Assembly: GCF_030010375.1 (NCBI RefSeq)
Contig: NZ_JASCRY010000001.1
Coordinates: 1,364,001-1,428,000 of the forward strand
Source of the DNA: Flavobacterium yafengii
GTDB lineage: Bacteria > Bacteroidota > Bacteroidia > Flavobacteriales > Flavobacteriaceae
Length of the DNA stretch: 64,000 nucleotides
Reading direction: 5' to 3'
Made by a program: the position numbers and the translations under genes. Below the pieces are notes generated by a model. The model was not told the origin of the DNA. It searched no databases and saw only the letters and a program-made list of their open reading frames with translations. Positions 607-60,380 of this stretch are shown here, piece by piece; position 1 is the first letter of the stretch, and every line of letters starts with the position of its first letter.

Positions 607-1062
607 CTATTTTTGTTTTTTTATTCCATATAAATATAAGGAATGGTTGGTAATCTCTATGTCGAATATTTCTTCGATTGTTTTTTTGATACTTTGAATT
701 CTTGGGTCACAAAACTCAATTACTTCGCCAGTATCAGTCATTATAATGTGATCGTGCTGTTTGTCAAAATATGATTTTTCATAATGTGCCTGATTTTGTC
801 CAAATTGGTGTTTACGCACTAAAGCACAATCCAATAGCAATTCGATCGTGTTGTAAAGAGTTGCTCTACTCACACGATAGTTTTTATTTTTCATTTTGAT
901 ATAAAGGTTTTCTACATCAAAATGTTCTTCGCTATCGTAAATTTCCTGAAGGATAGCATAACGTTCAGGAGTCTTGCGATGTCCTTTTTTTTCAAGATAC
1001 ATTGTAAAAACATTTTTTACAATTTCTTGGTTTTTGGTGTTATCTGTGGAAATGAGTGTCAT
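607..1062 (-). CDS. fur: Fur-family metal-dependent transcriptional repressor
   Basis: A 151-residue ferric uptake regulator-type protein that would bind DNA as a metal-loaded dimer in the cytoplasm. Visible are the winged-helix part ([12 protein letters not shown] near 31-42 and [14 protein letters not shown] near 63-76) and the metal-binding HDHII at 103-107. The region after HDHII reads MTDTGEV, so the structural CxxC zinc site of many Fur proteins is missing; Cys118 is one of few cysteines. Upstream is a -7 box TATCTTTG on the minus strand (1077-1070). It sits between rel and purA on the same strand. It is one candidate, on family grounds only, for the regulator of the iron island about 50 kb away. 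PerR or Zur cannot be excluded. Confidence 0.93.
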
Positions 1063-48503: not shown

Positions 48504-50720
48504 TTAGAATTTATATTTTAAACTTGTCAATATTTGACGCGGTGCAATTGGATTGATACTGTAGTTTTCGTGTACCGTATAATTCAACTCATTTGTAATA
48601 TTTGACAACCTACATAAGATTGAGATTTTTTTCCAAGTATAACCTGCAGAAACATCGATTGTAGTATAACCACTCATTGGAATTTCTCTGTCATTGATTG
48701 TTTGAGCTCCAGTATTAGGATTAATTACTACTAGATTATTCCAACCTCCAAGACGGTCACCAATGTAGTTCCCGATTGCTCCAAAAGAAACACCTTTTAA
48801 TGCTCCGGCTGGCAAGGTATAGAAAAAGCTTAAATTAGCGGTATTAGCTGGAGTTCTTACCACACGATCTCCTTCAATAGTACTTCCGTTTAATCCTGAT
48901 GTTTTGGTATAACGCATATCGTTGTAGCTGTAACCGGCAATAATGTTTAAGCCTTCAGTAGGTCTGGCAGTAATATCAATTTCAATTCCTTTGCTAGTAG
49001 TTTCTCCGTTCAAGACTTTTATAGTAGTATCAGTATTGTTTGATCCATCAGCTTTAAATTCTGCTGTTTGTGCCAAATTGCTGTTTGTGATTTGGTACGC
49101 AGTAATATTTGTACTCAAAATACCTCTCCAGAAATCTTTTTTAATACCTGCTTCATATTGGTCTATGATTGAGGGTTTTATTGGTTTTAAATCAACTGTT
49201 GTTCCAGTATTTGGTGTAAATGAGTTAGAGTAGCTGGCAAACAAAGACATCTCTTTTGTTGGTTGATACACTAATCCAAATTTTGGAGAGAATGCCTCAT
49301 CTTTACGTATTGGAGCTTGAGTTGTCAAGCTGTTGTTGATTACTTCTGCTTCTTGCCAAGACCAACGAATACCCGCTAAAAGCTTAATTTTTTCTGTAAA
49401 TGAAATCAAATCTTGTGCATAAACCCCAAAACGGTTTGTATCAGTGCTTACTATTCGGGTAAGTGTAGAATTTGGCTCATCCATTCGCTGTGTTGCAGGG
49501 TCGAAAGTAAAGATATTTACTGTATCATAATTGGCAGGACTAAAAGCAAACGTATACGCTTGTGCGAAAGAGTTTTCAAAATCTACACCTGTAAATAATT
49601 GATGTTTTATTTTTCCGGTGTTGAAGTTTCCTTGTATGCTTAATTGATCTCCAAAAATTTGTTCGGTACCTTTATTCTGTCCTAATGGTCTATTGAAATT
49701 TCCATAAGGATTAGCTGTTGGAGATATTACAATACGTTCTGTAGCTTTTGATTCTCTATCGAAATTTTGAAAAGAAGCATTGAAATTTAATTTCCAGTTG
49801 TCATTGAAACTGTGATTAAGTAATGCGGAAGCACTTGCTGATTTTGTTTCTCCATTTGACCAAAGTGCACCATAATAGTTACTACGAGGTACCTCTACAA
49901 TTTCTTTTCCAATTACTCCAGTTCCAAAATCTGGTGTCCAATTGCTTTTCAAGTAATCTCCTTGTACCGTAATTTGAGTTTTATCACTTACATTAAAAAG
50001 GAAAGAGGGGTTGATGTATAAACGTTCGTTTTTTACAACATCTCTAAAGCTTTCTGAATTTTCATATGAACCTGTAAAACGATATGCAATATGTTTATTT
50101 AATGGTCCGTAAAAATCAACCGATGGTTTATAATAAGCAAAACTCCCTGCTTGCATAGAAATTTCTCCCCCACTTTTGAAAGAAGGTGTTTTGGTAACTA
50201 AATTTAAAATTCCTCCAGGTGCTACGTTTCCAAATAATAAAGCCGCACTACCTTTTAAGAATTCTACTTTATCTAAAGAAGAAACTTCAGGCATTGACCC
50301 TCCATTGTAACGAAAACCATTTTTAAACATGTTGTTAGCTGACATATCATATCCTCTTGAATAAAAGGATTCTTGAGCGCCACCACGTGCGGAACCTACA
50401 TATACACCATTTGCATTTTTCAGTACCTCACTCAAACGAATACTTTGTTGTTGCGCTATAATTTCAGATCCAATAACTTGTACACTTTGTGGAGTATCCA
50501 TTGGTTTTAAACCTGATCTCAATGCAGAAACTGGCTTTTTCTCTTTATTGGCTGTAATAATAACTTCTTTAAGTATTCCTCCTTTTTTGTTTTTTATAGT
50601 ATCAAATTCTGAAGAAATAGTTTCATCATAATTTTTATCACCAGAAGCATTTGCTGATTCTTGTGCTAAACACGATAGGCTAAATAAAAGTGTTAAAGTT
50701 GGAAGTAAAATATATTTCAT
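48504..50720 (-). CDS. TonB-dependent siderophore receptor (receptor A)
   Basis: A 738-residue outer-membrane receptor that imports ferric siderophores using TonB energy. Signal peptide MKYILLPTLTLLFSLSCLAQ; plug (about 70-185) with QSVQVIGSEIIAQQQSIRLS, SFYSRGYDMSANNMFKNG and LKGSAALLFGNVAPGGILNL; a 22-strand barrel with SLFASYSNSFTPNTG and a C-terminal strand ending SLKYKF. The features fit the FhuA/FpvA-type siderophore receptor class; the ligand is unknown. It is transcribed from its own promoter with two copies of the 23-bp dyad element (50727-50749 and 50788-50810), which implies control together with receptor B and the ankyrin-DUF2271 unit. Confidence 0.93.
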   Translation of the reverse strand: MKYILLPTLTLLFSLSCLAQESANASGDKNYDETISSEFDTIKNKKGGILKEVIITANKEKKPVSALRSGLKPMDTPQSVQVIGSEIIAQQQSIRLSEVLKNANGVYVGSARGGAQESFYSRGYDMSANNMFKNGFRYNGGSMPEVSSLDKVEFLKGSAALLFGNVAPGGILNLVTKTPSFKSGGEISMQAGSFAYYKPSVDFYGPLNKHIAYRFTGSYENSESFRDVVKNERLYINPSFLFNVSDKTQITVQGDYLKSNWTPDFGTGVIGKEIVEVPRSNYYGALWSNGETKSASASALLNHSFNDNWKLNFNASFQNFDRESKATERIVISPTANPYGNFNRPLGQNKGTEQIFGDQLSIQGNFNTGKIKHQLFTGVDFENSFAQAYTFAFSPANYDTVNIFTFDPATQRMDEPNSTLTRIVSTDTNRFGVYAQDLISFTEKIKLLAGIRWSWQEAEVINNSLTTQAPIRKDEAFSPKFGLVYQPTKEMSLFASYSNSFTPNTGTTVDLKPIKPSIIDQYEAGIKKDFWRGILSTNITAYQITNSNLAQTAEFKADGSNNTDTTIKVLNGETTSKGIEIDITARPTEGLNIIAGYSYNDMRYTKTSGLNGSTIEGDRVVRTPANTANLSFFYTLPAGALKGVSFGAIGNYIGDRLGGWNNLVVINPNTGAQTINDREIPMSGYTTIDVSAGYTWKKISILCRLSNITNELNYTVHENYSINPIAPRQILTSLKYKF

Positions 50721-50726
50721 GATTGT

Positions 50727-50749
50727 TTATTTGGAATAATTAAAAATAA
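50727..50749 (-). promoter_or_regulatory. 23-bp dyad operator candidate, receptor A, downstream copy
   Basis: TTATTT-N11-AAATAA on the minus strand, with A9 and T15 also symmetric about the central T12. It overlies the expected transcription start, five bases downstream of the -7 box TATATTTG (50762-50755). Confidence 0.65.
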
Positions 50750-50754
50750 CGATG

Positions 50755-50784
50755 CAAATATAAAACTGAAGTATTGATTTGCAA
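50755..50784 (-). promoter_or_regulatory. Promoter of receptor A
   Basis: Minus strand TTG (50784-50782), exactly 19 bases, TATATTTG (50762-50755). The same TTG-N19-TAyATTTG layout occurs at 60354-60325 and 56802-56773. Confidence 0.75.
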
Positions 50785-50787
50785 AAT

Positions 50788-50810
50788 TTATTTAGATTAA
50801 ATATTAATGA
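50788..50810 (-). promoter_or_regulatory. 23-bp dyad operator candidate, receptor A, upstream copy
   Basis: Minus strand ends TTTAATCTAAATAA, with a T-to-C change and a T-to-A change in the other half. It begins 3 bases upstream of the -33 TTG, the same spacing as at receptor B. Confidence 0.6.
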
Positions 50811-51176
50811 AAATTAAAAATATATTTAACTATTTGTTTTTTAGATTTTTATGTTTTTTAAAATTGATTTTTTTTGTAGATAATTTCCTTTTTTTGACCT
50901 TTGTCTGGTTAAAATTGGTTTTTTGAGCCTATTAATTATCTGATTTTATCTCCAAAAGTAGTTTGAAGATCTTTTATGTTAAATTTTGTTAAAGGAGTAA
51001 TCCAAATACTAGCGCTGAGGAGGGCATTTTTTGTGCTGCGGATTTTTAATAGAAATGCTTGATTTGTGAAATTTGTATTAAAGTAGGGGTATTCTAATTA
51101 ACCATTTCTGACCACAAATACGAAATTTGTTTTTGTAGAAATAGTATTTAATTTCGGAAGTTTAAGCTTAGAAGAA

Positions 51177-52178
51177 TTAAAGTCGTGCCTTAAATTTCTT
51201 CATTCGGAAGTTTTTTGATTGCACAACTTTTCCATTATCAGTAATCATGACGCAACTATAATCAGGGTATTTGTTGAGCAGAAGCAGTCCTGCTGTTTTT
51301 CCTAAAACCATTAAGGAAGTACTCAAGCCATTCGCCGTTTCAGCATTTGGTCCAAAAACCGTCACACTACATAATCCTGTAGCGGGATAACCCGTTGCCG
51401 GATTGATAATGTGTGAATAGCGTTTGCTATCAAACACAACAAATTTCTCATAGCTGCCTGAAGTGGTTACCGCATCTTGTTTTAATGGAACAACAGCCAG
51501 AAGTTTTTCAGGATGAAAAGGATTCGTAATGCCGATATTCCAATTCTTTCCATTGGGCTGTTTTCCCCACGTACTCATATCACCCGATCCGTTTATAATC
51601 CCGGCTTTGATACCTTTTGCAAGCATCATATCCCGGCATTTATCGGTGGCATATCCTTCTCCCAAAGCGCCAAAACCAATTTTCATCCCTTTTAGTTTTA
51701 GAAAAATGGTGGATTGAACACTATCCAAAATTATGTTTTTATAGCCCACTTTTTCAACCGATTTCCGAATGGCTTCCGCCGAAGGCATCGCTGTCATGGA
51801 ACCGTCAAATTTCCAGATTTTATCCATTGCTGCAAAGCTGATATCAAAACCGCCATTAGTAATTTCAGAAAACCGAATCGCTCTTTGCGTTAATTCAAAA
51901 ACTTCTCTATCTACTTTCACAGGACGAATACCCGCATTTTGGTTCACTTCAGATAGCTGTGAGTCCGGTTTCCAGTCGGATATCAAATTTTCGATTCGTG
52001 TAATTTCTGCAATAACAGCATCTATGTTTTGTTCTGCCAATAATGAATCTTTGGCAACGATGGTAATGTCAAATCGACCGCCCATAAGTAAGGTGGTTCT
52101 TTTTCGTACGATTTGTGCATAACTTCCTTGACTCACAAAAAGTATCGCAATCAGCAAAAAGAAGTATTTTCTAGACAT
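51177..52178 (-). CDS. apbE: Secreted FAD:protein FMN transferase (ApbE-like)
   Basis: A 333-residue periplasmic enzyme that attaches FMN from FAD to a Thr/Ser of target flavoproteins. Signal peptide YFFLLIAILFVSQGSYAQ (cleaved near 22); then MGGRFDITIVA, NGGFDISFAAM near 108-118, GFGALGEGYATD at 168-179, INGSGDMSTWGKQP near 195-208, a TTSGSYEKF loop and SHIINPATGYP. In classic ApbE the 168-179 block has Lys where Glu174 is found here. It lies in the operon-like run with the PepSY-FNR reductase and DUF2271 protein, whose TGAS motif is its likely target. A repeat cassette separates it from the reductase gene. Confidence 0.93.
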   Translation of the reverse strand: MSRKYFFLLIAILFVSQGSYAQIVRKRTTLLMGGRFDITIVAKDSLLAEQNIDAVIAEITRIENLISDWKPDSQLSEVNQNAGIRPVKVDREVFELTQRAIRFSEITNGGFDISFAAMDKIWKFDGSMTAMPSAEAIRKSVEKVGYKNIILDSVQSTIFLKLKGMKIGFGALGEGYATDKCRDMMLAKGIKAGIINGSGDMSTWGKQPNGKNWNIGITNPFHPEKLLAVVPLKQDAVTTSGSYEKFVVFDSKRYSHIINPATGYPATGLCSVTVFGPNAETANGLSTSLMVLGKTAGLLLLNKYPDYSCVMITDNGKVVQSKNFRMKKFKARL

Positions 52179-52215
52179 AAAATTCAGTGTTAAAATAATT
52201 TGGGCGTGACCCTCC

Positions 52216-52237
52216 GTCTCGTCCCAAAAGACGAGAC
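52216..52237. repeat. Short hairpin 5' of repeat cassette B
   Basis: GTCTCGTC-CCAAAA-GACGAGAC, a perfect 8-bp stem, 7 bases before the start of the cassette at 52245-52320. Confidence 0.6.
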
Positions 52238-52244
52238 TACGGGT

Positions 52245-52320
52245 CGTGCTGTACGTTCCCGCTTTTTTATGAGAGGCAAAAAAAGCCTCTCATAAAAAGA
52301 GCTCCACTGCCATCACTCAC
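52245..52320. repeat. Hairpin-cassette repeat, copy B (diverged)
   Basis: Left flank CGTGCTGTACGTTCCCGC, hairpin TTTTTATGAGAGGC-A7-GCCTCTCATAAAAA (52264-52298, perfect 14-bp stem), right flank GAGCTCCACTGCCATCACTC. Flank and hairpin layout match copy A at 38533-38599 with substitutions. It lies in the gap between the reductase and apbE genes. Confidence 0.6.
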
Positions 52321-52388
52321 GCATAGCAATATGCAATTCATTAATATTTACACAAAAAGTATTATTATAATTTTATCCAGTTTCGCCT

Positions 52389-52407
52389 CCCTCTCCTTTG
52401 GAGAGGG
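52389..52407. terminator. Hairpin after the PepSY-FNR reductase gene
   Basis: CCCTCTCC-TTT-GGAGAGGG, 8-bp stem, followed by a third related GGGGAGAGG. It is 14 bases past the stop of the minus-strand gene at 52421. It resembles a GC-rich intergenic repeat and may act as a terminator, but has no T-run. Confidence 0.45.
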
Positions 52408-52420
52408 CTGGGGAGAGGAC

Positions 52421-54619
52421 TTAATAACAATCCGTCAGCACTTGTCCATTAGCTTTATAGTCTGCAATTCCCATAGTTGCTCTTGCAAGACAGAGCGCAT
52501 CAAGAGCCGCTTCCACGTCCTTTTGCATCGCAAGCGAACCGCAAATCATTACAACGCCTCCTTGTGACAGTAAATCCATAAAAAAACCAGCATCTCGTTT
52601 GATTAGATCCATTACATAGTGATGGTTCGCTTCGCGAGATAATGCTACATGAAAACTTTTAAGATGCTGTTTTTGGATCATTTCAGCAGCAAATTTTTCA
52701 TACCCTAAAACAGTTTCAGTTGCTTTTCGAAAGCCACAATACAAATGAATTTCGGTTTTTTTCTTATTTTGTTCCATCATTCCCAGGAAGGGAGCAATAC
52801 CGGTTCCATTTGAAATCAACGCTACTTTAGATGCTTTTTTCGGGAAGTGAAAAGAGAGATTTTTAATAATTCGCGCTTTGAAAACAGAGCCTTTTTCAAC
52901 AGCATATAAATAGCCTGAACCCAAACCAGAAGGATGCAGTTTTACCACTAATTGTATGTTGCCGTTATGATTTCCGATGGAGTAGAGGCGTTCTTGGTTG
53001 TCGTTTGCAGGATAAATAGCCAAGAGGTCACCCGACGTAAATTTAGCGCTCATACTAGCTCGTAATGTGAGTAAAAAAGTATGTTCCGTATCAGAAATGG
53101 CAGTTTTATCGAGTACCGTCAGCTTTTGTAAACCTTTTGGAACTTCATTGTATAAGGATGGAGTAGCCGAAAGTGGAATTCCTGTTTTGGCACTCCATAA
53201 TTTCACCCAACCTACAAATTCTTCTGCTGATTTGTCATTTACGGTTTGTAATTCTAACAAGCGTTCTGCCCAACTCTGTTTTTCCAATACGGTATCAATT
53301 TCACGGGCAAAACCGCAAAAATCTGGATACGCTTTCGACCCAAAACCGACTACAGAAATATTGATTTTTTGCTGTTGTTTAGTTTTGTTGACCAATGCTG
53401 TAAATTTACTTCCATTAGAAGGGGCATCGCCTAACCCGTGGGTTGAAGTAAATACGATAAGATGTTCTGCTTTTGGATAAACCGAATAATTATTCAATTC
53501 GGTAAGAAAGACTTTTTTTCCGTTGGCAAGCAATTGTTTCTGAATAGCATTGGCAAATAGTAATGAACTTCCATTTTCGGAACCAACCAACAATATGAAT
53601 GCGCTGTCTTCGGCTTTGTACTTGTTTTTAATGCGACTCGCTCTTCGTTTTAACGTCATGGCAAAACCCGAGTAGATAAAAAAGAGAATATTTAAACTCG
53701 CGATTCCTAAAATTATGGCCCATAAAATACTTGCTCTCCCAGTATGCAAATCAAGACTCCAGTCCGATACTAAAGTTTGCAACGGAAAAGGAGTTTCGCT
53801 TACAATTGCTCCGGTAATCTGGTTGACTTCGATTTCTCGATCTTTTAATGTAATGATATAATATTCCTCGGGATCATCCGAAAAAGGGAATTCAATTTTT
53901 TGAACATCAGCCAGAAGCGTATTTTTAAAAAAAGAAGTAGCAGCACCTTTTTTTGCAATAGGCGCAGTTACAGTCATTTCAGTTTTTTCTTCAGAATCTG
54001 TTTTTTCAAGGAAAAAATTAAACTTTTCCAGGGTTAAATAGGTTCCGGAAAGTGCAATAATCAGAATCGGAATCAGCGATAATCGTCCTAAAAAAATATG
54101 GTAATATTGGGCAAAATTTTCTTTTACAATTTTAGAAAATAAACTGCGAAGACTTCTTTGGCGGTTTAGTATCAAAGCAAAACCCGAAATGGAAATCAAT
54201 GCTAACAAAAAGGAAATAAAACCAACAAAAAAACGCCCTGTTTCTTTAAGGAATAAAGAACGATGGAGCGCTGTTGTCCATTGGATAAACTCACTTTTTT
54301 TGATGGGTTCTCCTAATGTTTTTCCAGTTCTTGGGTCGATGTAAGCGTTGACATCATTGTCTTCCTGATCAATACCTTGCAGCGTCACAAATTGATTGTG
54401 GTCAACACTCAATTCCGTTATTTCAGGATACGCTTTTTTTAGTACAGGTAAAGTTTTTTCAAATGTTATTTTTTCGAAATTTTCTACTCGGTAGGGCGGT
54501 GTTTTCTCCTGTATTGCATCGACTGCAAGTATAACGCCAGTTACCGATGCCAATACTAAAAATGCTGTAGAAAATACAGCCAAGGCCAAGTGTGAGTAAC
54601 GCCAAAAAGAAAGAGTCAT
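52421..54619 (-). CDS. PepSY-TM / flavodoxin / FNR fusion reductase
   Basis: A 732-residue membrane reductase. Residues 1-330: PepSY-associated transmembrane region with helices near 11-33, 128-150, 181-197 and 297-320 and periplasmic PepSY parts. About 340-480: flavodoxin-like FMN domain (ILLVGSENGSSLLFANAI and FTSTHGLGDAPSNG). About 500-732: ferredoxin-NADP-reductase module with ERLYSIGNHNGN for FAD and NGTGIAPFLGMM plus MICGSLAMQKDVE for NADPH. It should carry electrons from NADPH in the cytoplasm across the inner membrane to periplasmic acceptors, as CysJ-like modules do. With ApbE and DUF2271 beside it, the acceptor is probably a flavinylated protein that reduces ferric siderophores (inference). 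Confidence 0.92.
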   Translation of the reverse strand: MTLSFWRYSHLALAVFSTAFLVLASVTGVILAVDAIQEKTPPYRVENFEKITFEKTLPVLKKAYPEITELSVDHNQFVTLQGIDQEDNDVNAYIDPRTGKTLGEPIKKSEFIQWTTALHRSLFLKETGRFFVGFISFLLALISISGFALILNRQRSLRSLFSKIVKENFAQYYHIFLGRLSLIPILIIALSGTYLTLEKFNFFLEKTDSEEKTEMTVTAPIAKKGAATSFFKNTLLADVQKIEFPFSDDPEEYYIITLKDREIEVNQITGAIVSETPFPLQTLVSDWSLDLHTGRASILWAIILGIASLNILFFIYSGFAMTLKRRASRIKNKYKAEDSAFILLVGSENGSSLLFANAIQKQLLANGKKVFLTELNNYSVYPKAEHLIVFTSTHGLGDAPSNGSKFTALVNKTKQQQKINISVVGFGSKAYPDFCGFAREIDTVLEKQSWAERLLELQTVNDKSAEEFVGWVKLWSAKTGIPLSATPSLYNEVPKGLQKLTVLDKTAISDTEHTFLLTLRASMSAKFTSGDLLAIYPANDNQERLYSIGNHNGNIQLVVKLHPSGLGSGYLYAVEKGSVFKARIIKNLSFHFPKKASKVALISNGTGIAPFLGMMEQNKKKTEIHLYCGFRKATETVLGYEKFAAEMIQKQHLKSFHVALSREANHHYVMDLIKRDAGFFMDLLSQGGVVMICGSLAMQKDVEAALDALCLARATMGIADYKANGQVLTDCY

Positions 54620-54638
54620 TGATAATAAATTTTAACAT

Positions 54639-54684
54639 ATAAGTCATATAAGTTTTACGTTTTGTAAAAGCTTATATGACTTAT
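54639..54684. repeat. Long stem-loop between DUF2271 and reductase genes
   Basis: ATAAGTCATATAAGTTTTAC (54639-54658) pairs with GTAAAAGCTTATATGACTTA plus T (54664-54684) with a single bulge around a 5-base loop. It lies in the 91-base gap inside the run of co-oriented genes, so it could attenuate or process the transcript. Confidence 0.7.
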
Positions 54685-54710
54685 TTGGTTTAATGTGAAA
54701 GCTGTTTATT

Positions 54711-55193
54711 TTATATTTTGTTTAATCTTACGTAGCGAATATAGCCTTTACCTTCTGTTTTTGCAGCAATTCCTTCGGTTGTGAGCGGAATTTCTAAATC
54801 AGCGGTATAATATTTATGATCTTCTACCGCTGTTTCAAAGCGCAATTTAAATCCCTTGTTGATTTTAGCATCTTCAATTTCAATTGTGGTGATGCTGCGG
54901 TCGCCGCCAGTTACGGAAGCTCCCGTTTTTGCACTTATGTTTTCTGGTTTTTTAGAGTAGAATTTGTGCCATTCTTTTATGGTTTTGTACCATTTTTTAT
55001 CGTCACCCATTACATATAGTGTTTTCACATATTCGCCTTTTGCGTTTACAAGTGAAACTACAATATAAGCGCCTTCTCCCATGTAATTTGACATTTGGAG
55101 CATGCATTTATATTTACTGGTTTGTGCGGCAGCTTGAAACGATAAAAAGCATAGTAGCACAGCTATCAGACCGAATTTTAGTATTGATTTCAT
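54711..55193 (-). CDS. Periplasmic DUF2271 protein with candidate flavinylation motif
   Basis: A 160-residue exported protein: signal peptide MKSILKFGLIAVLLCFLSFQ then AAAQ (cleaved near 24), then a DUF2271 domain with GEGAYIVVSLVNAKGEYVKT and KWYKTIKEWHKFY. At 87-95 SAKTGASVT matches the ApbE target pattern (S/T)GA(T/S), with Ser93 as the candidate FMN-bearing residue. DUF2271 proteins are recurrent neighbours of PepSY and ApbE genes in iron-related clusters, and here they are direct neighbours too. It starts 4 bases after the ankyrin gene stop. The modification is inferred, not proven. Confidence 0.85.
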   Translation of the reverse strand: MKSILKFGLIAVLLCFLSFQAAAQTSKYKCMLQMSNYMGEGAYIVVSLVNAKGEYVKTLYVMGDDKKWYKTIKEWHKFYSKKPENISAKTGASVTGGDRSITTIEIEDAKINKGFKLRFETAVEDHKYYTADLEIPLTTEGIAAKTEGKGYIRYVRLNKI

Positions 55194-55197
55194 ACGA

Positions 55198-56694
55198 TTA
55201 TTTTAAAAATTCTAGAGATACGTTATTTTTTGTTAAAGATTCATTTTCTTTTGCTAAGGCGTAGGCACTTTCGTAAAAATCAGTGGTAATTTCTTTTTTG
55301 GCACCAATAGACACTAGGTATTTCAAAATAGCATCGTCTTTAGAAATCATAGCTGCTTTGTGCAACGCTGTTAAACCATCTTTGTTTTTGGTATTGATAT
55401 CGATGTTTAAAGCGGCGATTTTTTTCAATAAAGCCAAGTCGTTTTTAATTATAGCGAAATGATATAATGTATTCCCGTCTTTTTGAGGAGTGCCCAAGTT
55501 TAAACCTTTATCCTGAAGTAATTTTATTTTAGTCTCAAAAGGATCTTGAGTGGTTGCCTCTGGTCCGCGACCTGATGGTCTGTAGGATTGAATCAGGTAA
55601 TACCCTAAATTGTTTCCTTCTTTGTCCAGTACTTTTGCATCAGCTCCTTTGTTTAAAAGTACTTTTATAGCCTCAGGAATTCCTGCTTTTACAGCTATTG
55701 TCAATGCCGATTCTCCTTTTAGATTTTGAACATTGTTGTTTTTTACTATTGGTAATAACAGTTCTAATACTGCAATATCTCTAGCTGAAGCAGCCGCCAT
55801 TAATGCCGTATTTCCCTCGTTACTGGCTTTATTAGCATCTACGCCTTTGGACAAAAAATAGTTGATAATTTCGGTTTGGTTGGCTTTGCTTGCCAATAAA
55901 TGAAGCACCGTTTCACCCGATTTGCTCGTAGCAGTTGGTTTGATTTTTAAATCTTCAACTAAATATTTGTAGGTTTCAAGAGAAGTCACATCTCTACGGG
56001 AACCTTGTGCTGCAAACAGCAGTGCATTGTCAGTATATTTTACTCCTTTTTCTAATAGGGATTTTAATAATGGTAGGTTGCCTGATTTTGCAGCGTAATT
56101 AAAAGCTGTGTTGCCGTCACTATCAGTATCCTTAATTGACATTCCTTTAGTGGTGAAATAGGTAGTAAGCGCTAGGTTTTTGTCGGATGCGATCGCCATT
56201 AATAACAGGTTGACACCGTCTTTGTATTTTTTCTTAGGATCAGTTCCAGCTTTAAAAAAGGCATCATACAGTGCGGTATTGCTTTGACTTCCAACAGCTG
56301 CAAAGGTTAGCGGAGTTTCTCCTTTGCTGTCTTCTAGATTAAGATCAGCCCCTTTGCTAATAAGGTATTCTACAATTGCTACATTTCCTTTATTGGCGGC
56401 CCAGTGTAAATAAATACGATTGTCGTGTGTCAATTTGCTGACTTCATTCCCGGGTTGCTCCAGTAAGAATTGTATTGTTGCTGTAGGCGCATCATTATTA
56501 ATTGCCATAACGGTTACATCAAAAGCATTTGGGGTTGATGCTGATGGGCTGTTTCCTTTTGCTATTTCTGCTTTAACCGCATTTACATCTGGTGTTGTTT
56601 TCCAAAAAGATTGCTCCAAAAGGGTGTTTTTTTGCTGCGCACTAACAAATAAAGTAGCGACTAAAGCAAAAGAAATAAAAAGATTCTTTTTCAT
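55198..56694 (-). CDS. Periplasmic ankyrin-repeat protein
   Basis: A 498-residue exported protein. Signal peptide MKKNLFISFALVATLFVSAQ; then about 12 ankyrin units, for example NRIYLHWAANKGNVAIVEYL, SKGADLNLEDSKGETPLTFA, DSDGNTAFNYAAKSGNLPLL, KGADAKVLDKEGNNL and KNKDGLTALHKAAMISK. Ankyrin arrays bind partners, and nothing catalytic is visible. It stands directly upstream of DUF2271 (4-base gap) and is the first gene behind an iron-type promoter with the dyad element (56748-56770). I infer that it scaffolds or protects the DUF2271 electron carrier in the periplasm; other roles are open. Confidence 0.88.
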   Translation of the reverse strand: MKKNLFISFALVATLFVSAQQKNTLLEQSFWKTTPDVNAVKAEIAKGNSPSASTPNAFDVTVMAINNDAPTATIQFLLEQPGNEVSKLTHDNRIYLHWAANKGNVAIVEYLISKGADLNLEDSKGETPLTFAAVGSQSNTALYDAFFKAGTDPKKKYKDGVNLLLMAIASDKNLALTTYFTTKGMSIKDTDSDGNTAFNYAAKSGNLPLLKSLLEKGVKYTDNALLFAAQGSRRDVTSLETYKYLVEDLKIKPTATSKSGETVLHLLASKANQTEIINYFLSKGVDANKASNEGNTALMAAASARDIAVLELLLPIVKNNNVQNLKGESALTIAVKAGIPEAIKVLLNKGADAKVLDKEGNNLGYYLIQSYRPSGRGPEATTQDPFETKIKLLQDKGLNLGTPQKDGNTLYHFAIIKNDLALLKKIAALNIDINTKNKDGLTALHKAAMISKDDAILKYLVSIGAKKEITTDFYESAYALAKENESLTKNNVSLEFLK

Positions 56695-56747
56695 AAATTT
56701 TTTATCAAGGTTCTTATTAATAGAGGATGTGTGTTTGTTTAATTTAG

Positions 56748-56770
56748 TTATTTAGAATAAATAAAAATAA
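56748..56770 (-). promoter_or_regulatory. 23-bp dyad operator candidate, ankyrin gene
   Basis: TTATTT-N11-AAATAA on the minus strand, starting 2 bases after the -7 box (56780-56773), so over the transcription start. There is no second copy upstream here. Confidence 0.65.
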
Positions 56771-56772
56771 CG

Positions 56773-56802
56773 CAAATGTAAAAATAAATAGCATAATACC
56801 AA
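56773..56802 (-). promoter_or_regulatory. Promoter of the ankyrin-DUF2271 unit
   Basis: Minus strand TTG (56802-56800), exactly 19 bases, TACATTTG (56780-56773), as at both receptors. The untranslated leader to the ATG at 56694 is about 70 bases. Confidence 0.7.
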
Positions 56803-56938
56803 TTATTATTTATGCCATTAAATAAAATTTTTATTGTTTTTTTATGCTTGTTTGCACTATTTAGATATAAAAAGAATTGAAAGGTTTAATGCAATTGCTT
56901 TAAATTATTCAACTTTGCTTTTTTATATCGATTTATGC

Positions 56939-58084
56939 CTAAGCTTTTGTTGTGTTTGTCTTTTTTTTATTTCGTCCCCACCAAATGTAGCATCCGGATA
57001 TTGGTAGACTTGCAATGAGTAAACTAAATAAACAGGCGAATATTTTTCCGGGTAATCCTAATATGGCTCCCGTGTGAATGTCATAATTCATTTTCATGAG
57101 GTTATCGGCAACTTTATCCGCTGTTTTTCTGCCCCAAATATGGGAAACAGGCATCTCTTTCAAACTGTATTGATCAAAATACCGATAGTCAATTTTCCAA
57201 TACGTTCCTTTGTCGCTATTCGCATTTGCGGCTATCGGTGATAGATTCGTTTCAGGCGGATGAATTTCAATTGATTTAGCCAATGGATATTCTTTTTGCA
57301 TTTGAAGCCAAACGGCATCTAATGGTTTTACGGTTGAAGTAGTTGCGGTTTTCTGGTTTTTTTTCGAAAGCGGTTCTTCATATAATAATGATTTTTCACC
57401 ACCGGATACTTTATAATACGAATACGCAAACCATTGAAATCCCCATACTAATCCTGTAATGGCGAAAATAATTCCGATTATCAAGATGTAAAAACCGGTG
57501 ACATTATGTAAGTCATAATTTTTTCTTTTCCATTTCGTTCCTTTTTTCCATTTGAACCAAAAGCGTTGTTTTGCTGCACTTTTATTTTTTGGATACCAAA
57601 GAATTAATCCCGAAATCAACATTATCAGAAATACTATTGTCGCTGATGCCACAACAGTTTGCCCAATTTGATGTGGCAGCCAAAGATAGAAATGCCCTTC
57701 GAGTATAAATGGAAAAAAACCTTCCTCATTATTGATCGTTTTCAGCACTTTTCCCGTGTAAGGATTAAGGTAAGTCGTATAATGATAACTGGGTTCGTAA
57801 TGAAAAAATATAGCCTCAACAGAATTATTTTTTTCGTTGTATTTGATGGCGTGAAGCACCTTATTAGGAACTTCTTTTCTGGCGATGGTTTCCAACTGAG
57901 ATGGAGGTAGAAAAGATTTATTTTGTGTTTCCACAAAACGATATTCTTCTGTGATGTTTTGTATTTCCTCTTGAAAGGCATACAAACATCCCGTGATGGC
58001 GATTATAAAAACAATTAAACCAGAGGACAAACCAAGCCAAAGATGGATTTTTCGAGTTGCTTTTTTGAAGTTATTATTTTTCAT
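56939..58084 (-). CDS. PepSY-associated transmembrane protein
   Basis: A 381-residue inner-membrane protein with the PepSY_TM layout: first helix TRKIHLWLGLSSGLIVFIIA (about 10-29), a periplasmic PepSY part (about 45-135), helices near 140-165, 195-225 and 350-372, and conserved histidines (HLWLGL, EGHFYLWLP, YDLHNVTGF) suited to heme or quinone ligation. Similar proteins accompany siderophore receptors and ferric reductases. Its start lies 63 bases downstream of receptor B and it is probably read from receptor B's promoter through a weak hairpin. Unlike the fusion at 52421 it has no flavin domains. Confidence 0.9.
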   Translation of the reverse strand: MKNNNFKKATRKIHLWLGLSSGLIVFIIAITGCLYAFQEEIQNITEEYRFVETQNKSFLPPSQLETIARKEVPNKVLHAIKYNEKNNSVEAIFFHYEPSYHYTTYLNPYTGKVLKTINNEEGFFPFILEGHFYLWLPHQIGQTVVASATIVFLIMLISGLILWYPKNKSAAKQRFWFKWKKGTKWKRKNYDLHNVTGFYILIIGIIFAITGLVWGFQWFAYSYYKVSGGEKSLLYEEPLSKKNQKTATTSTVKPLDAVWLQMQKEYPLAKSIEIHPPETNLSPIAANANSDKGTYWKIDYRYFDQYSLKEMPVSHIWGRKTADKVADNLMKMNYDIHTGAILGLPGKIFACLFSLLIASLPISGCYIWWGRNKKKTNTTKA

Positions 58085-58096
58085 TTAAAAAGGATA

Positions 58097-58122
58097 AAAC
58101 TCCCCACCGAAATGAGGAGTTT
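58097..58122 (-). terminator. Weak hairpin between receptor B and PepSY genes
   Basis: AAACTCCCCA, loop CCGAAA, TGAGGAGTTT: a 10-bp stem with one mismatch. No T-run on the minus strand, so read-through into the PepSY gene is likely. Confidence 0.4.
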
Positions 58123-58147
58123 AGTGAAACAAAACCAATTATGAAAC

Positions 58148-60295
58148 TTAAAATTTATAGGTTAAACCTGCTGTTACACTTCTCAAACGCTGAGGTGTTA
58201 CAGTAGACCATCCTGAATAATATTTTTCGTTTAAAGCATTATTTAATTTCAATGAGATGTTGAATTTATCACTCGAATACGATAATGCTGAATTTAAAAC
58301 GGTATAACTTGGTAAGGCAAAGGTTCCTATATTCGCTCTGTTCAATGTTTTGTATTCGCTGGCATAATTTCCACCAAATCCTATTCCGAAACCTTTTAAT
58401 TTTCCTGAAGTCAACGTGTAATTAGCCCAGAAATTAACTAAGGTTTCCGGTCCTGCTTCTTCAGGTCTTAATCCTAAATAACCATCTCCGGGATTGTCTT
58501 TTGTGACTTCACTTTTATTGTTACTGAATCCTGCAATGATGTTAAATCCTTTGACTGGATTTGCCGTAAAACTCACCTCGACTCCTTTACTGTTTACTTC
58601 GCCGCCTTGAATGGAGTTGTTGATATTATTGGGATCAGTCATTATTCTATTTTTTACATCAATGTTGTAATAGCTAATCGATGCCGAAATAATATCCTTG
58701 TATAAGTTTGTTTTTAATCCAACTTCATATTGATTGGCTTGCTCCGGGTCAAAAGATTCCATTCTCGGATTAGAACCATCCACTTCAGAAACTTGTCTTG
58801 GAGTTACATTTACAAAGCCATTCATATAATTTGAAAAGACAGAAACTTTATCTTTAATAAGCATATAAACCAGGCCAAATTTTGGAGAAACGGCCGCTTG
58901 ACTGTTTTCTTCGTCTGCCGTTGTAGATTTGAAATGATCAATTCTCAAACTCGCCATGGCAGATAATTTATCGGTAATATTCAGCACATCCGAAGCATAA
59001 GCACTAATTACTTCAACTTCAGCAGTTGAATTTCCTTCAAACGAACCTACTAAAAGATTATCAACTCCCGCTTGGGTCAAATCTCCGGTATCAGATCCAT
59101 CGACTAAGGAAACTATTCCATTTCCAACCCAACCAGTACCTCCGTTTATAATATTTGATTTATAATAATCGACACCTGCGACCAATCGGTTTCTTAAACT
59201 TCCAATTTTAAAGTCTCCAATGAAATTCTGCTGAATATCAGTCGCCAAAGTTTCTCCGTTTCTTTTAGAAATGGATCTTGAAAAATCATTTCCGTTTGAA
59301 GCATCAAATAAATACGAATAATACCCGCTGGTTTTGCTGTTACTTCTGGACAATACTGTTTGAGAAGTCCATTGATCAGAAAGCTTATAAAACATTTGAG
59401 CCTGTAAACTATAGGTTGGATTGCTGATTGATAATTCGTTGGAAGTAAACGATTTTTTATAATTTCTTTCGAATAATTCGATTGAATTAAACGATAGAGC
59501 AGAATATCTGCTCAAGAAAAGCATGGGCGCATTAGCAGAATTTCTGTTAGTAAATTCTGTATTGATTAAGAACGAAAGTTTATCGTTTACTTTATAACTC
59601 AACGAAGGCGCAAAGAAAAATGATTTGCCAAAACCTGCATCTTGAAACGAATTCTCTTTTTGATATGCAGTATTTATTCGTACGGCAACATCTTTATTTA
59701 AAGGTAGGTTTACATCGGCTGTAATTCGGTCTAATCCATAGGATCCTGATAGGTAACTTATTTCTCCACCAAATGTTGAGTATGGTTTTTTAGTCACAGT
59801 GTTTATTAAACCTCCGTAAGAAATCAAACTGCTTCCAAATAATGTTCCTGATGGCCCTTTTATTACTTCAATATTATCCACATTTGCAGGATCGATACTT
59901 CCATTATTGATTCCCGGAAGTCCATTAATCATTGTGGGCTGAACGGCAAAACCTCTCATAGAAAAATATTCTGCTCCATCGCCGCCACGTCCGGTTGATT
60001 CCCAAAGACGCGTTATACCAGTTGCATTTTTTAAAGCATCATTAAAATTGGTTACCAATTGCTCTTTCAATAATTCGCTGGTAACAGTATTGTACACTTG
60101 AGGATTTTCAATATTGTTCAAAGGCATTTTAGAAACTGTAGTGCTTTTTTCTCTTTTGTACTTGAATTTGTTGGTGTTAACAATAACTTCTTTCAGGGTT
60201 TTAACAGAATCTTTTTCTTGCTCTTTTTTTTCTTGAGCGCTAGCTGTTATACCAATTAATAAAACGGACAGGTAAAATGTATGTATCGACTTCAT
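58148..60295 (-). CDS. TonB-dependent siderophore receptor (receptor B)
   Basis: A 715-residue outer-membrane receptor. Signal peptide MKSIHTFYLSVLLIGITASA; plug (about 60-175) with FNDALKNATGITRLWESTGR, YFSMRGFAVQPTMINGLPG and VIKGPSGTLFGSSLISYGGL; barrel to the C-terminal LTYKF. It is a different family member from receptor A, so it probably takes another siderophore. The two operator copies (60296-60318 and 60358-60380) and promoter are laid out like those of receptor A. The ATG directly abuts the downstream operator (60296). Confidence 0.93.
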   Translation of the reverse strand: MKSIHTFYLSVLLIGITASAQEKKEQEKDSVKTLKEVIVNTNKFKYKREKSTTVSKMPLNNIENPQVYNTVTSELLKEQLVTNFNDALKNATGITRLWESTGRGGDGAEYFSMRGFAVQPTMINGLPGINNGSIDPANVDNIEVIKGPSGTLFGSSLISYGGLINTVTKKPYSTFGGEISYLSGSYGLDRITADVNLPLNKDVAVRINTAYQKENSFQDAGFGKSFFFAPSLSYKVNDKLSFLINTEFTNRNSANAPMLFLSRYSALSFNSIELFERNYKKSFTSNELSISNPTYSLQAQMFYKLSDQWTSQTVLSRSNSKTSGYYSYLFDASNGNDFSRSISKRNGETLATDIQQNFIGDFKIGSLRNRLVAGVDYYKSNIINGGTGWVGNGIVSLVDGSDTGDLTQAGVDNLLVGSFEGNSTAEVEVISAYASDVLNITDKLSAMASLRIDHFKSTTADEENSQAAVSPKFGLVYMLIKDKVSVFSNYMNGFVNVTPRQVSEVDGSNPRMESFDPEQANQYEVGLKTNLYKDIISASISYYNIDVKNRIMTDPNNINNSIQGGEVNSKGVEVSFTANPVKGFNIIAGFSNNKSEVTKDNPGDGYLGLRPEEAGPETLVNFWANYTLTSGKLKGFGIGFGGNYASEYKTLNRANIGTFALPSYTVLNSALSYSSDKFNISLKLNNALNEKYYSGWSTVTPQRLRSVTAGLTYKF

Positions 60296-60318
60296 TTATT
60301 TAGATTAATTAAAAATAA
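60296..60318 (-). promoter_or_regulatory. 23-bp dyad operator candidate, receptor B, downstream copy
   Basis: TTATTT-N11-AAATAA on the minus strand, 6 bases after the -7 box TATATTTG (60332-60325) and immediately before the ATG. Confidence 0.65.
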
Positions 60319-60324
60319 TAATTG

Positions 60325-60354
60325 CAAATATAATAGTGCTTTTTGTTTTAACAA
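60325..60354 (-). promoter_or_regulatory. Promoter of receptor B
   Basis: Minus strand TTG (60354-60352), exactly 19 bases, TATATTTG (60332-60325). Confidence 0.75.
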
Positions 60355-60357
60355 AAC

Positions 60358-60380
60358 TTATTTAGACTAAATATAAATAA
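60358..60380 (-). promoter_or_regulatory. 23-bp dyad operator candidate, receptor B, upstream copy
   Basis: TTATTT-N11-AAATAA on the minus strand with TTTAGTCTAAA inside it, 3 bases upstream of the -33 TTG, as at receptor A. Confidence 0.65.

Follow-up and report, generated by a model that had tools for sequence, protein, structure and literature searches.

A putative Fur box locked to the promoters of two siderophore receptors and a predicted flavin-based reductase unit in Flavobacterium yafengii

Which regulator, if any, joins two siderophore receptor genes and a predicted reductase unit in Flavobacterium yafengii? The question is raised by a 23-bp dyad element, TTATTT-N11-AAATAA, which recurs in the 64,000-nucleotide stretch of contig NZ_JASCRY010000001.1 analysed here (the window). 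It lies upstream of two TonB-dependent siderophore receptors (A and B) and of a gene unit that begins with an ankyrin-repeat protein and contains a membrane reductase. The original prediction had described the element as an iron-responsive repressor site common to both receptors and the reductase unit, and this reading is favoured by our analysis on account of the match to a published box and the iron-gene context. The dyad is most likely a Fur box of the kind already published in the order, with an unusually regular layout. The five predicted dyads are all present at their positions, as follows.

50727..50749, minus strand: putative Fur box, start-site copy of receptor A
50788..50810, minus strand: putative Fur box, weak upstream copy, adjacent to the -33 TTG of receptor A
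56748..56770, minus strand: putative Fur box, single start-site copy of the ankyrin/reductase unit
60296..60318, minus strand: putative Fur box, start-site copy of receptor B
60358..60380, minus strand: putative Fur box, upstream copy next to the -33 TTG of receptor B

The exact form occurs four times in the window (at 50727, 56748, 60296 and 60358), and the fifth copy, at 50788-50810, carries two substitutions, both within one half, as predicted. Read on the coding (minus) strand, the five copies are TTATTTTTAATTATTCCAAATAA, TCATTAATATTTAATCTAAATAA, TTATTTTTATTTATTCTAAATAA, TTATTTTTAATTAATCTAAATAA and TTATTTATATTTAGTCTAAATAA, and the central base on this strand is T in 5/5. Each consists of a strong half, TCTAAATAA (TCCAAATAA in one copy), and a degenerate second half, which reads TTATTTTTA, TTATTTATA or TCATTAATA. 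All five sites agree at 15-16 of 19 positions with the Fur consensus of Riemerella anatipestifer, and the copy at 60358..60380 is the best of the five, with one mismatch to the symmetrical form.

The R. anatipestifer box provides the link to a known regulator. According to passages of the published work, its 19-bp core, ATTTAGAATTATTCTAAAT, was assigned by motif software, and purified Fur gave shifts in electrophoretic mobility shift assays (EMSA) at four promoters (PMC5609570); the rhuB box, ATTTAGAATTATCCTAAAT, is supported by EMSA and a fur mutant (PMC10986502), and mutation of a Fur box raised the transcription of rhuH (PMC11967795). As far as these passages go, asymmetric variants also occur, such as ATTTAGAATAATTAAAAAA at an oxidoreductase, and the boxes, which belong to iron receptors and other genes, lie less than 100 bp from the start codon. 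In the window and its relatives in the genus, the element reaches 23 bp and the receptors often have two copies at fixed promoter positions, whereas the passages from the two Fur papers (PMC5609570 and PMC10986502) make no mention of a pair of boxes. The E. coli-type Fur box, GATAATGATAATCATTATC, is likewise a Fur-family palindrome of the 7-1-7 type, but its half-site is TGATAAT, compared with TTAGAAT here, which is closer to the TTATAAT half-site of the PerR box, itself a 7-1-7 palindrome.

The position of the dyads relative to the promoters is as regular as had been claimed. Each of the three units has the sequence TTG, exactly 19 bases and then TAyATTTG:

50755..50784, minus strand (read 50784 to 50755): promoter of receptor A, TTG-N19-TATATTTG
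56773..56802, minus strand (read 56802 to 56773): promoter of the ankyrin/reductase unit, TTG-N19-TACATTTG
60325..60354, minus strand (read 60354 to 60325): promoter of receptor B, TTG-N19-TATATTTG

The pattern TTG-N19-TAyATTTG is found in the window only at these three promoters (none on the plus strand, three on the minus strand), and they show the features of a Bacteroidetes sigma-A promoter, a TAnnTTTG -7 box and, about 19 bp before it, TTG. At both receptors, the upstream box ends 3 bases before the TTG (spacers ATT and GTT), an equal spacing that had also been noted. The ankyrin promoter has the start-site copy only, again as predicted; in the region up to about 220 bp from its start codon, we detected no upstream copy. 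As for the further claim that one copy overlies the transcription start, its position at the promoter stands, and the start site itself can only be placed by analogy. Passages on the promoter map of F. psychrophilum give the consensus TAnnTTTG, spanning -12 to -5. On this scale, the start-site boxes of the window receptors, of the ankyrin gene and of sufS, a gene considered below, would be centred at about +7 to +14, and the upstream boxes at about -49.

Could such a motif arise by chance in AT-rich DNA? Within the window, we used the independently published 19-mer as the query and 60 shuffled palindromes of the same letters as controls. There were 7 matches at 15 or more of 19 positions, five of them the dyads, while the shuffled palindromes gave a mean of 2.1 and a maximum of 6; at 16 or more positions there were 4 matches, compared with a mean of 0.18 and a maximum of 1. 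Genome-wide, 4 places match the symmetrical form with no more than one mismatch and 9 with no more than two, for which a second-order Markov model of the window expects 0 and 1.2, respectively. Chance occurrence, the objection that the original prediction had itself raised, was rejected by the shuffled palindromes, by the Markov expectation and by the reversed-pattern control of the genus scan described below. For the pair at 50.7-50.8 kb, support comes from position and conservation and not from score, because both copies have three mismatches.

For each of the three window genes, conservation was examined in the 30 best loci from 101 genus genomes, using 200 bp upstream, a match of at least 15/19 to the published 19-mer and 200 shuffled palindromes as controls; the locus set of receptor B includes paralogues. 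The box was present upstream in 24/30 receptor-B, 29/30 ankyrin and 21/30 receptor-A loci, where the shuffled palindromes averaged 0.9, 0.7 and 1.4, respectively, and none of the 200 attained the real count. At the ankyrin gene, the 19-mer core was identical in 23 of the 30 loci. When distances were taken from the first base of the -7 element to the box centre, with a cut-off of at least 17/23 matches, the ankyrin box was centred at 20-22 in 30/30 loci, with the start codon anywhere from 62 to 127 away. Box pairs were found in 17/30 receptor-A, 20/30 receptor-B and 0/30 ankyrin loci; in these pairs, the centre of the upstream copy fell at -36 to -38 and that of the start-site copy mostly within 21-27, the exceptions being one copy at 29 and two at 35. 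The boxes are locked to the promoter, not to the start codon. In several receptor-A loci, the copy at -36 to -38 is replaced by a further box near -107 to -125.

Using the promoter geometry alone, the same arrangement can be retrieved across the genus. The dual-box pattern (half-box, 5 bases, TTG, 19-20 bases, TAnnTTTG, 4-34 bases, half-box) matched 115 of the 299 Flavobacterium genomes, and none of them (0/299) contained its reversed control. Among the 30 loci fetched, 25 were TonB receptors by similarity to the window receptors, 4 encoded DUF4856 proteins and 1 an imelysin. The spacing of the pair in 133 matches was 61 bp in 67 and 57-62 bp in 116, ranging from 57 to 72, with the position of the upstream box set by the pattern itself. 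The lower edge of this range is approximately where the downstream box would begin to overlap the -7 element. We also considered strict helical phasing of the pair, which is unsupported beyond the peak at 61 bp, given the spacings of 57 to 72. A pattern search is enough to find the dual-box promoter, which allows the prediction of iron-uptake genes in many Flavobacterium genomes. The strict single-box promoter pattern led in 30 loci to 22 receptors, 5 ankyrin orthologues and 3 that were neither, one of these three being shown as DUF4856. DUF4856 proteins (loci L291, L292, L305 and L318, and L346 with the single-box pattern) thus share box promoters with siderophore receptors, and the dual-box promoter common to both suggests that this uncharacterised family takes part in iron uptake. 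In some genomes (G058, G076 and G665), a further half-box, TTATTTAGAATCAC, lies between -33 and -7, so that three Fur sites may overlap one promoter.

The site set also extends beyond the window in the same genome. Nine sites have at most two mismatches; three of them are window boxes and six lie elsewhere. One of the six, C1:222139 (2 mismatches), overlaps the 3' end of a gene and was set aside, not being a promoter site. The others are:

C1:218431: site upstream of a TonB receptor
C1:434167: site upstream of a TonB receptor
C1:471362: site between hemA and araC-hemH; perfect palindrome
C1:620301: site upstream of a class-V aminotransferase, called sufS here
C1:786065: site upstream of a small open reading frame (ORF) with a DUF6686 match only below cut-off

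Of the iron island that the original prediction had proposed, the shared element is retained and the local confinement is not, as the set of sites spans genome and genus. The perfect 19-bp palindromes in the genus form a group of their own, with 17 of 30 fetched loci at sufS, 6 at hemA/araC and 7 elsewhere. The sufS box was centred at +18 from the -7 element in 21/21 loci, while the start codon lay at distances of 12 to 105; for araC-hemH, 12/13 loci had the box centre at +46, counted from the araC -7 element. Except for those of our own genome, these loci were fetched via the perfect palindrome, and the counts are therefore silent on loci without one. At +46, the palindrome of the C1:471362 type lies too far downstream for simple promoter occlusion. 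An order-level scan found the exact palindrome in at least 83/296 genomes, a count from which we claim no enrichment, and 14 of the 27 new loci among the matches listed lay at sufS, hemA/araC or a cytochrome gene.

As the regulator, a single candidate of the Fur family is available:

607..1062, minus strand: fur, followed by purA; no second Fur-family gene was found in the genome

Its product matches PF01475 (E 1.5e-26, the single match in the genome), and an HDH motif and later E and H residues, which we take to be the metal ligands of Fur, align with Fur proteins of solved structures. A relative was found in 118/120 genomes of the family, and purA adjoins fur in 110/110 loci (30 of the family, one of which is this genome, and 80 named records); the single fur of F. 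psychrophilum (THC0290_0812) also precedes purA. Attempts to delete fur failed in two Flavobacterium fish pathogens. All listed NCBIfam models of Fur, PerR and Irr scored below their cut-offs with this protein, and the top score was that of a Fur model. The iron control element of Irr in alphaproteobacteria, TTTAGAA-N3-TTCTAAA, whose targets include haem synthesis, has a half-site nearly identical to that of the dyad, and the spacing is also nearly the same. The protein itself gave 39.9 bits of the 170 needed for the Irr model NF045677 and 40.9 of 150 for NF045678, that is, about 40 bits compared with 71.8 for the best Fur model, neither passing its cut-off. Autoregulation of fur through the dyad was rejected on low upstream matches: the 200 bp preceding fur offer no better match than 12/19 here, and the best matches in the same region of the 80 named loci were only 11-14/19.

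From these observations, we hold it very probable that the dyad is the flavobacterial Fur box, that Fur blocks these promoters under iron and that the second box at the receptors tightens repression. The proposed box reads TTATTTnTAnTTAnTCTAAATAA on the coding strand, a 7-1-7 core (TTAGAAT-N-ATTCTAA) with TTAT and ATAA extensions. Under iron-replete conditions, Fur from the gene at 607-1062, loaded with Fe(II), would bind the box and block sigma-A RNA polymerase at the -33/-7 promoters, the start-site box, centred at about +10 to +14 from the expected start, covering initiation. At both window receptors, the second box, centred at about -49, would add a second Fur dimer and thereby tighter repression. 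When iron falls, Fur would leave; this would free all three transcription units, and the flavin-based reductase unit would be expressed along with the two receptors. Binding of Fur and repression through the box are taken from R. anatipestifer, and we infer that the same mechanism operates here; the sites do precede iron acquisition genes and overlap their promoters, as expected of a Fur regulon. A bolder version, which we regard as possible but rather doubtful, is a two-operator clamp, in which dimers upstream of -33 and at the start would cooperatively trap or exclude RNA polymerase through a short loop or a sandwich, and in which perfect single palindromes would let the same Fur directly control araC-hemH and sufS. 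Direct control of such iron-using genes is elsewhere the task of Irr or a small RNA.

Concerning the regulator, the original prediction had named both Fur and the DtxR family, and Fur emerges as much likelier. One DtxR-family gene over the cut-off does exist in the genome (a second match is below it), encoding DNA-binding, metal-binding and FeoA domains, and the dyad might in principle be bound by an IdeR- or MntR-type repressor. Its metal is settled by no NCBIfam model, as the MntR model gave 154.8 bits of 350 and the DtxR model 78.3 of 290, both below cut-off; with MntR as the best match, the protein looks more like MntR. The gene also adjoins an Nramp transporter gene, which indicates manganese, and the dyad is the same as a site at which Fur binding has been demonstrated in a relative. 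From the gene content and the Nramp adjacency, we judge a DtxR/MntR regulator of the dyad very unlikely. Less probable still, and close to negligible, is that the dyad belongs to strong flavobacterial promoters in general, as an AT-rich start region and not a regulator site. In favour of this reading, the dyad is rich in A and T, is located at the start site and is found with each of the three TTG-N19-TAyATTTG promoters of the window. However, it is palindromic, the flanks beyond 23 bp carry little information (the sites being preselected, the flat flanks alone are independent evidence), and it is concentrated at iron genes, with the five dual-box loci other than TonB receptors encoding DUF4856 or imelysin.

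A different doubt concerns not the regulator but its action, as Fur might activate, or act without metal, at some of the genes (araC-hemH, sufS and the cytochrome gene). The araC-hemH box lies past the usual position of a repressor site, and 23 of the 30 fetched perfect palindromes are at sufS or hemA/araC. In contrast, the sufS box overlaps the expected start, which fits repression, and we consider this variant improbable, if less so than a DtxR-family regulator.

Several results weigh against the reading of the dyad as a Fur box. The protein from 607-1062 passes Pfam FUR but no NCBIfam Fur model, the best score being the above 71.8 bits for a cut-off of 146; for this reason, and because no NCBIfam model settles which metal the DtxR-family protein senses, our confidence in the explanation as a whole is slightly lower. 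One R. anatipestifer paper, in the passages concerned, cites an E. coli-type consensus instead. With up to three mismatches, the genome has 23 places, fewer than the 33 of the reversed pattern and near the 17.6 expected from the Markov model; at this level, the symmetrical pattern is noise. The reversed 19-mer reached 15 or more matches upstream of 15/30 receptor-A, 4/30 receptor-B and 1/30 ankyrin loci, although for receptor A this control is taken as weak because its two window matches overlap real boxes. Moreover, the upstream box at -36 to -38 is absent from 13/30 receptor-A loci and the pair is missing in 10/30 loci of receptor B or its paralogues. The strict single-box pattern was found in only 82/299 genomes (none for its control) and the perfect palindrome in only 53/101 (69 sites, compared with 32 for the reversed control). 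Among the 7 perfect-palindrome loci elsewhere, only one was shown to be a TonB receptor, and 13 of the 27 new order-level loci among the matches listed correspond to no reference gene.

In the open-licence literature, surveyed in part, we found no Fur box or Fur regulon for Flavobacterium itself, and found no description of the position-locked box pair of receptors across the genus or of perfect single boxes at haem and Fe-S genes. From the present analysis, Flavobacterium gains a concrete putative Fur box, a candidate for the regulator gene and a first set of predicted targets, and the fixed dual-box geometry offers a clear biophysical test of how Fur would block a -33/-7 promoter.

The genes served by the boxes are listed below, with operon limits inferred from gene order.

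48504..50720, minus strand: TonB-dependent siderophore receptor A (TIGR01783 above cut-off)
51177..52178, minus strand: ApbE, FAD:protein FMN transferase
52421..54619, minus strand: PepSY_TM, flavodoxin and FAD/NAD-binding membrane reductase
54711..55193, minus strand: DUF2271 protein with a TGAS motif, predicted ApbE flavinylation substrate
55198..56694, minus strand: ankyrin-repeat protein, first gene of the reductase unit; its start reads like a signal peptide
56939..58084, minus strand: PepSY_TM protein
58148..60295, minus strand: TonB-dependent siderophore receptor B (TIGR01783 above cut-off)

The PepSY_TM protein at 56939..58084 is probably co-transcribed with receptor B, judging from the gap of 63 bp. 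The unit behind the ankyrin gene is of the same kind in gene content as the PepSY/ApbE/DUF2271 flavinylation clusters which, in passages of PMC8238504, are linked to iron reduction and reported as Fur-repressed in Shewanella and Caulobacter. Our unit differs in being led by an ankyrin-repeat protein, and the word ankyrin is absent from the main text of that paper; in the literature consulted, we found no role described for the ankyrin protein (55198-56694) in iron uptake. Through the shared box, the ankyrin/DUF2271/PepSY/ApbE unit would become tied to iron uptake.

Two minor observations concern genes outside the window. A Fur-like box occurs near a multihaem cytochrome c gene, presumably of the alternative complex III type, in two families of the order (C1:924394 of our own genome, locus L013, and loci L186, L191, L193, L194 and L200). 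Its distance from the ATG varies from 17 to 147 bp, and in L013 and L200 the box may serve the divergent small gene instead. The box at C1:786065, with one mismatch, lies just upstream of the TATATTTG element of a 118-amino-acid ORF with the sub-threshold DUF6686 match, which makes this ORF a candidate new iron-regulated gene.

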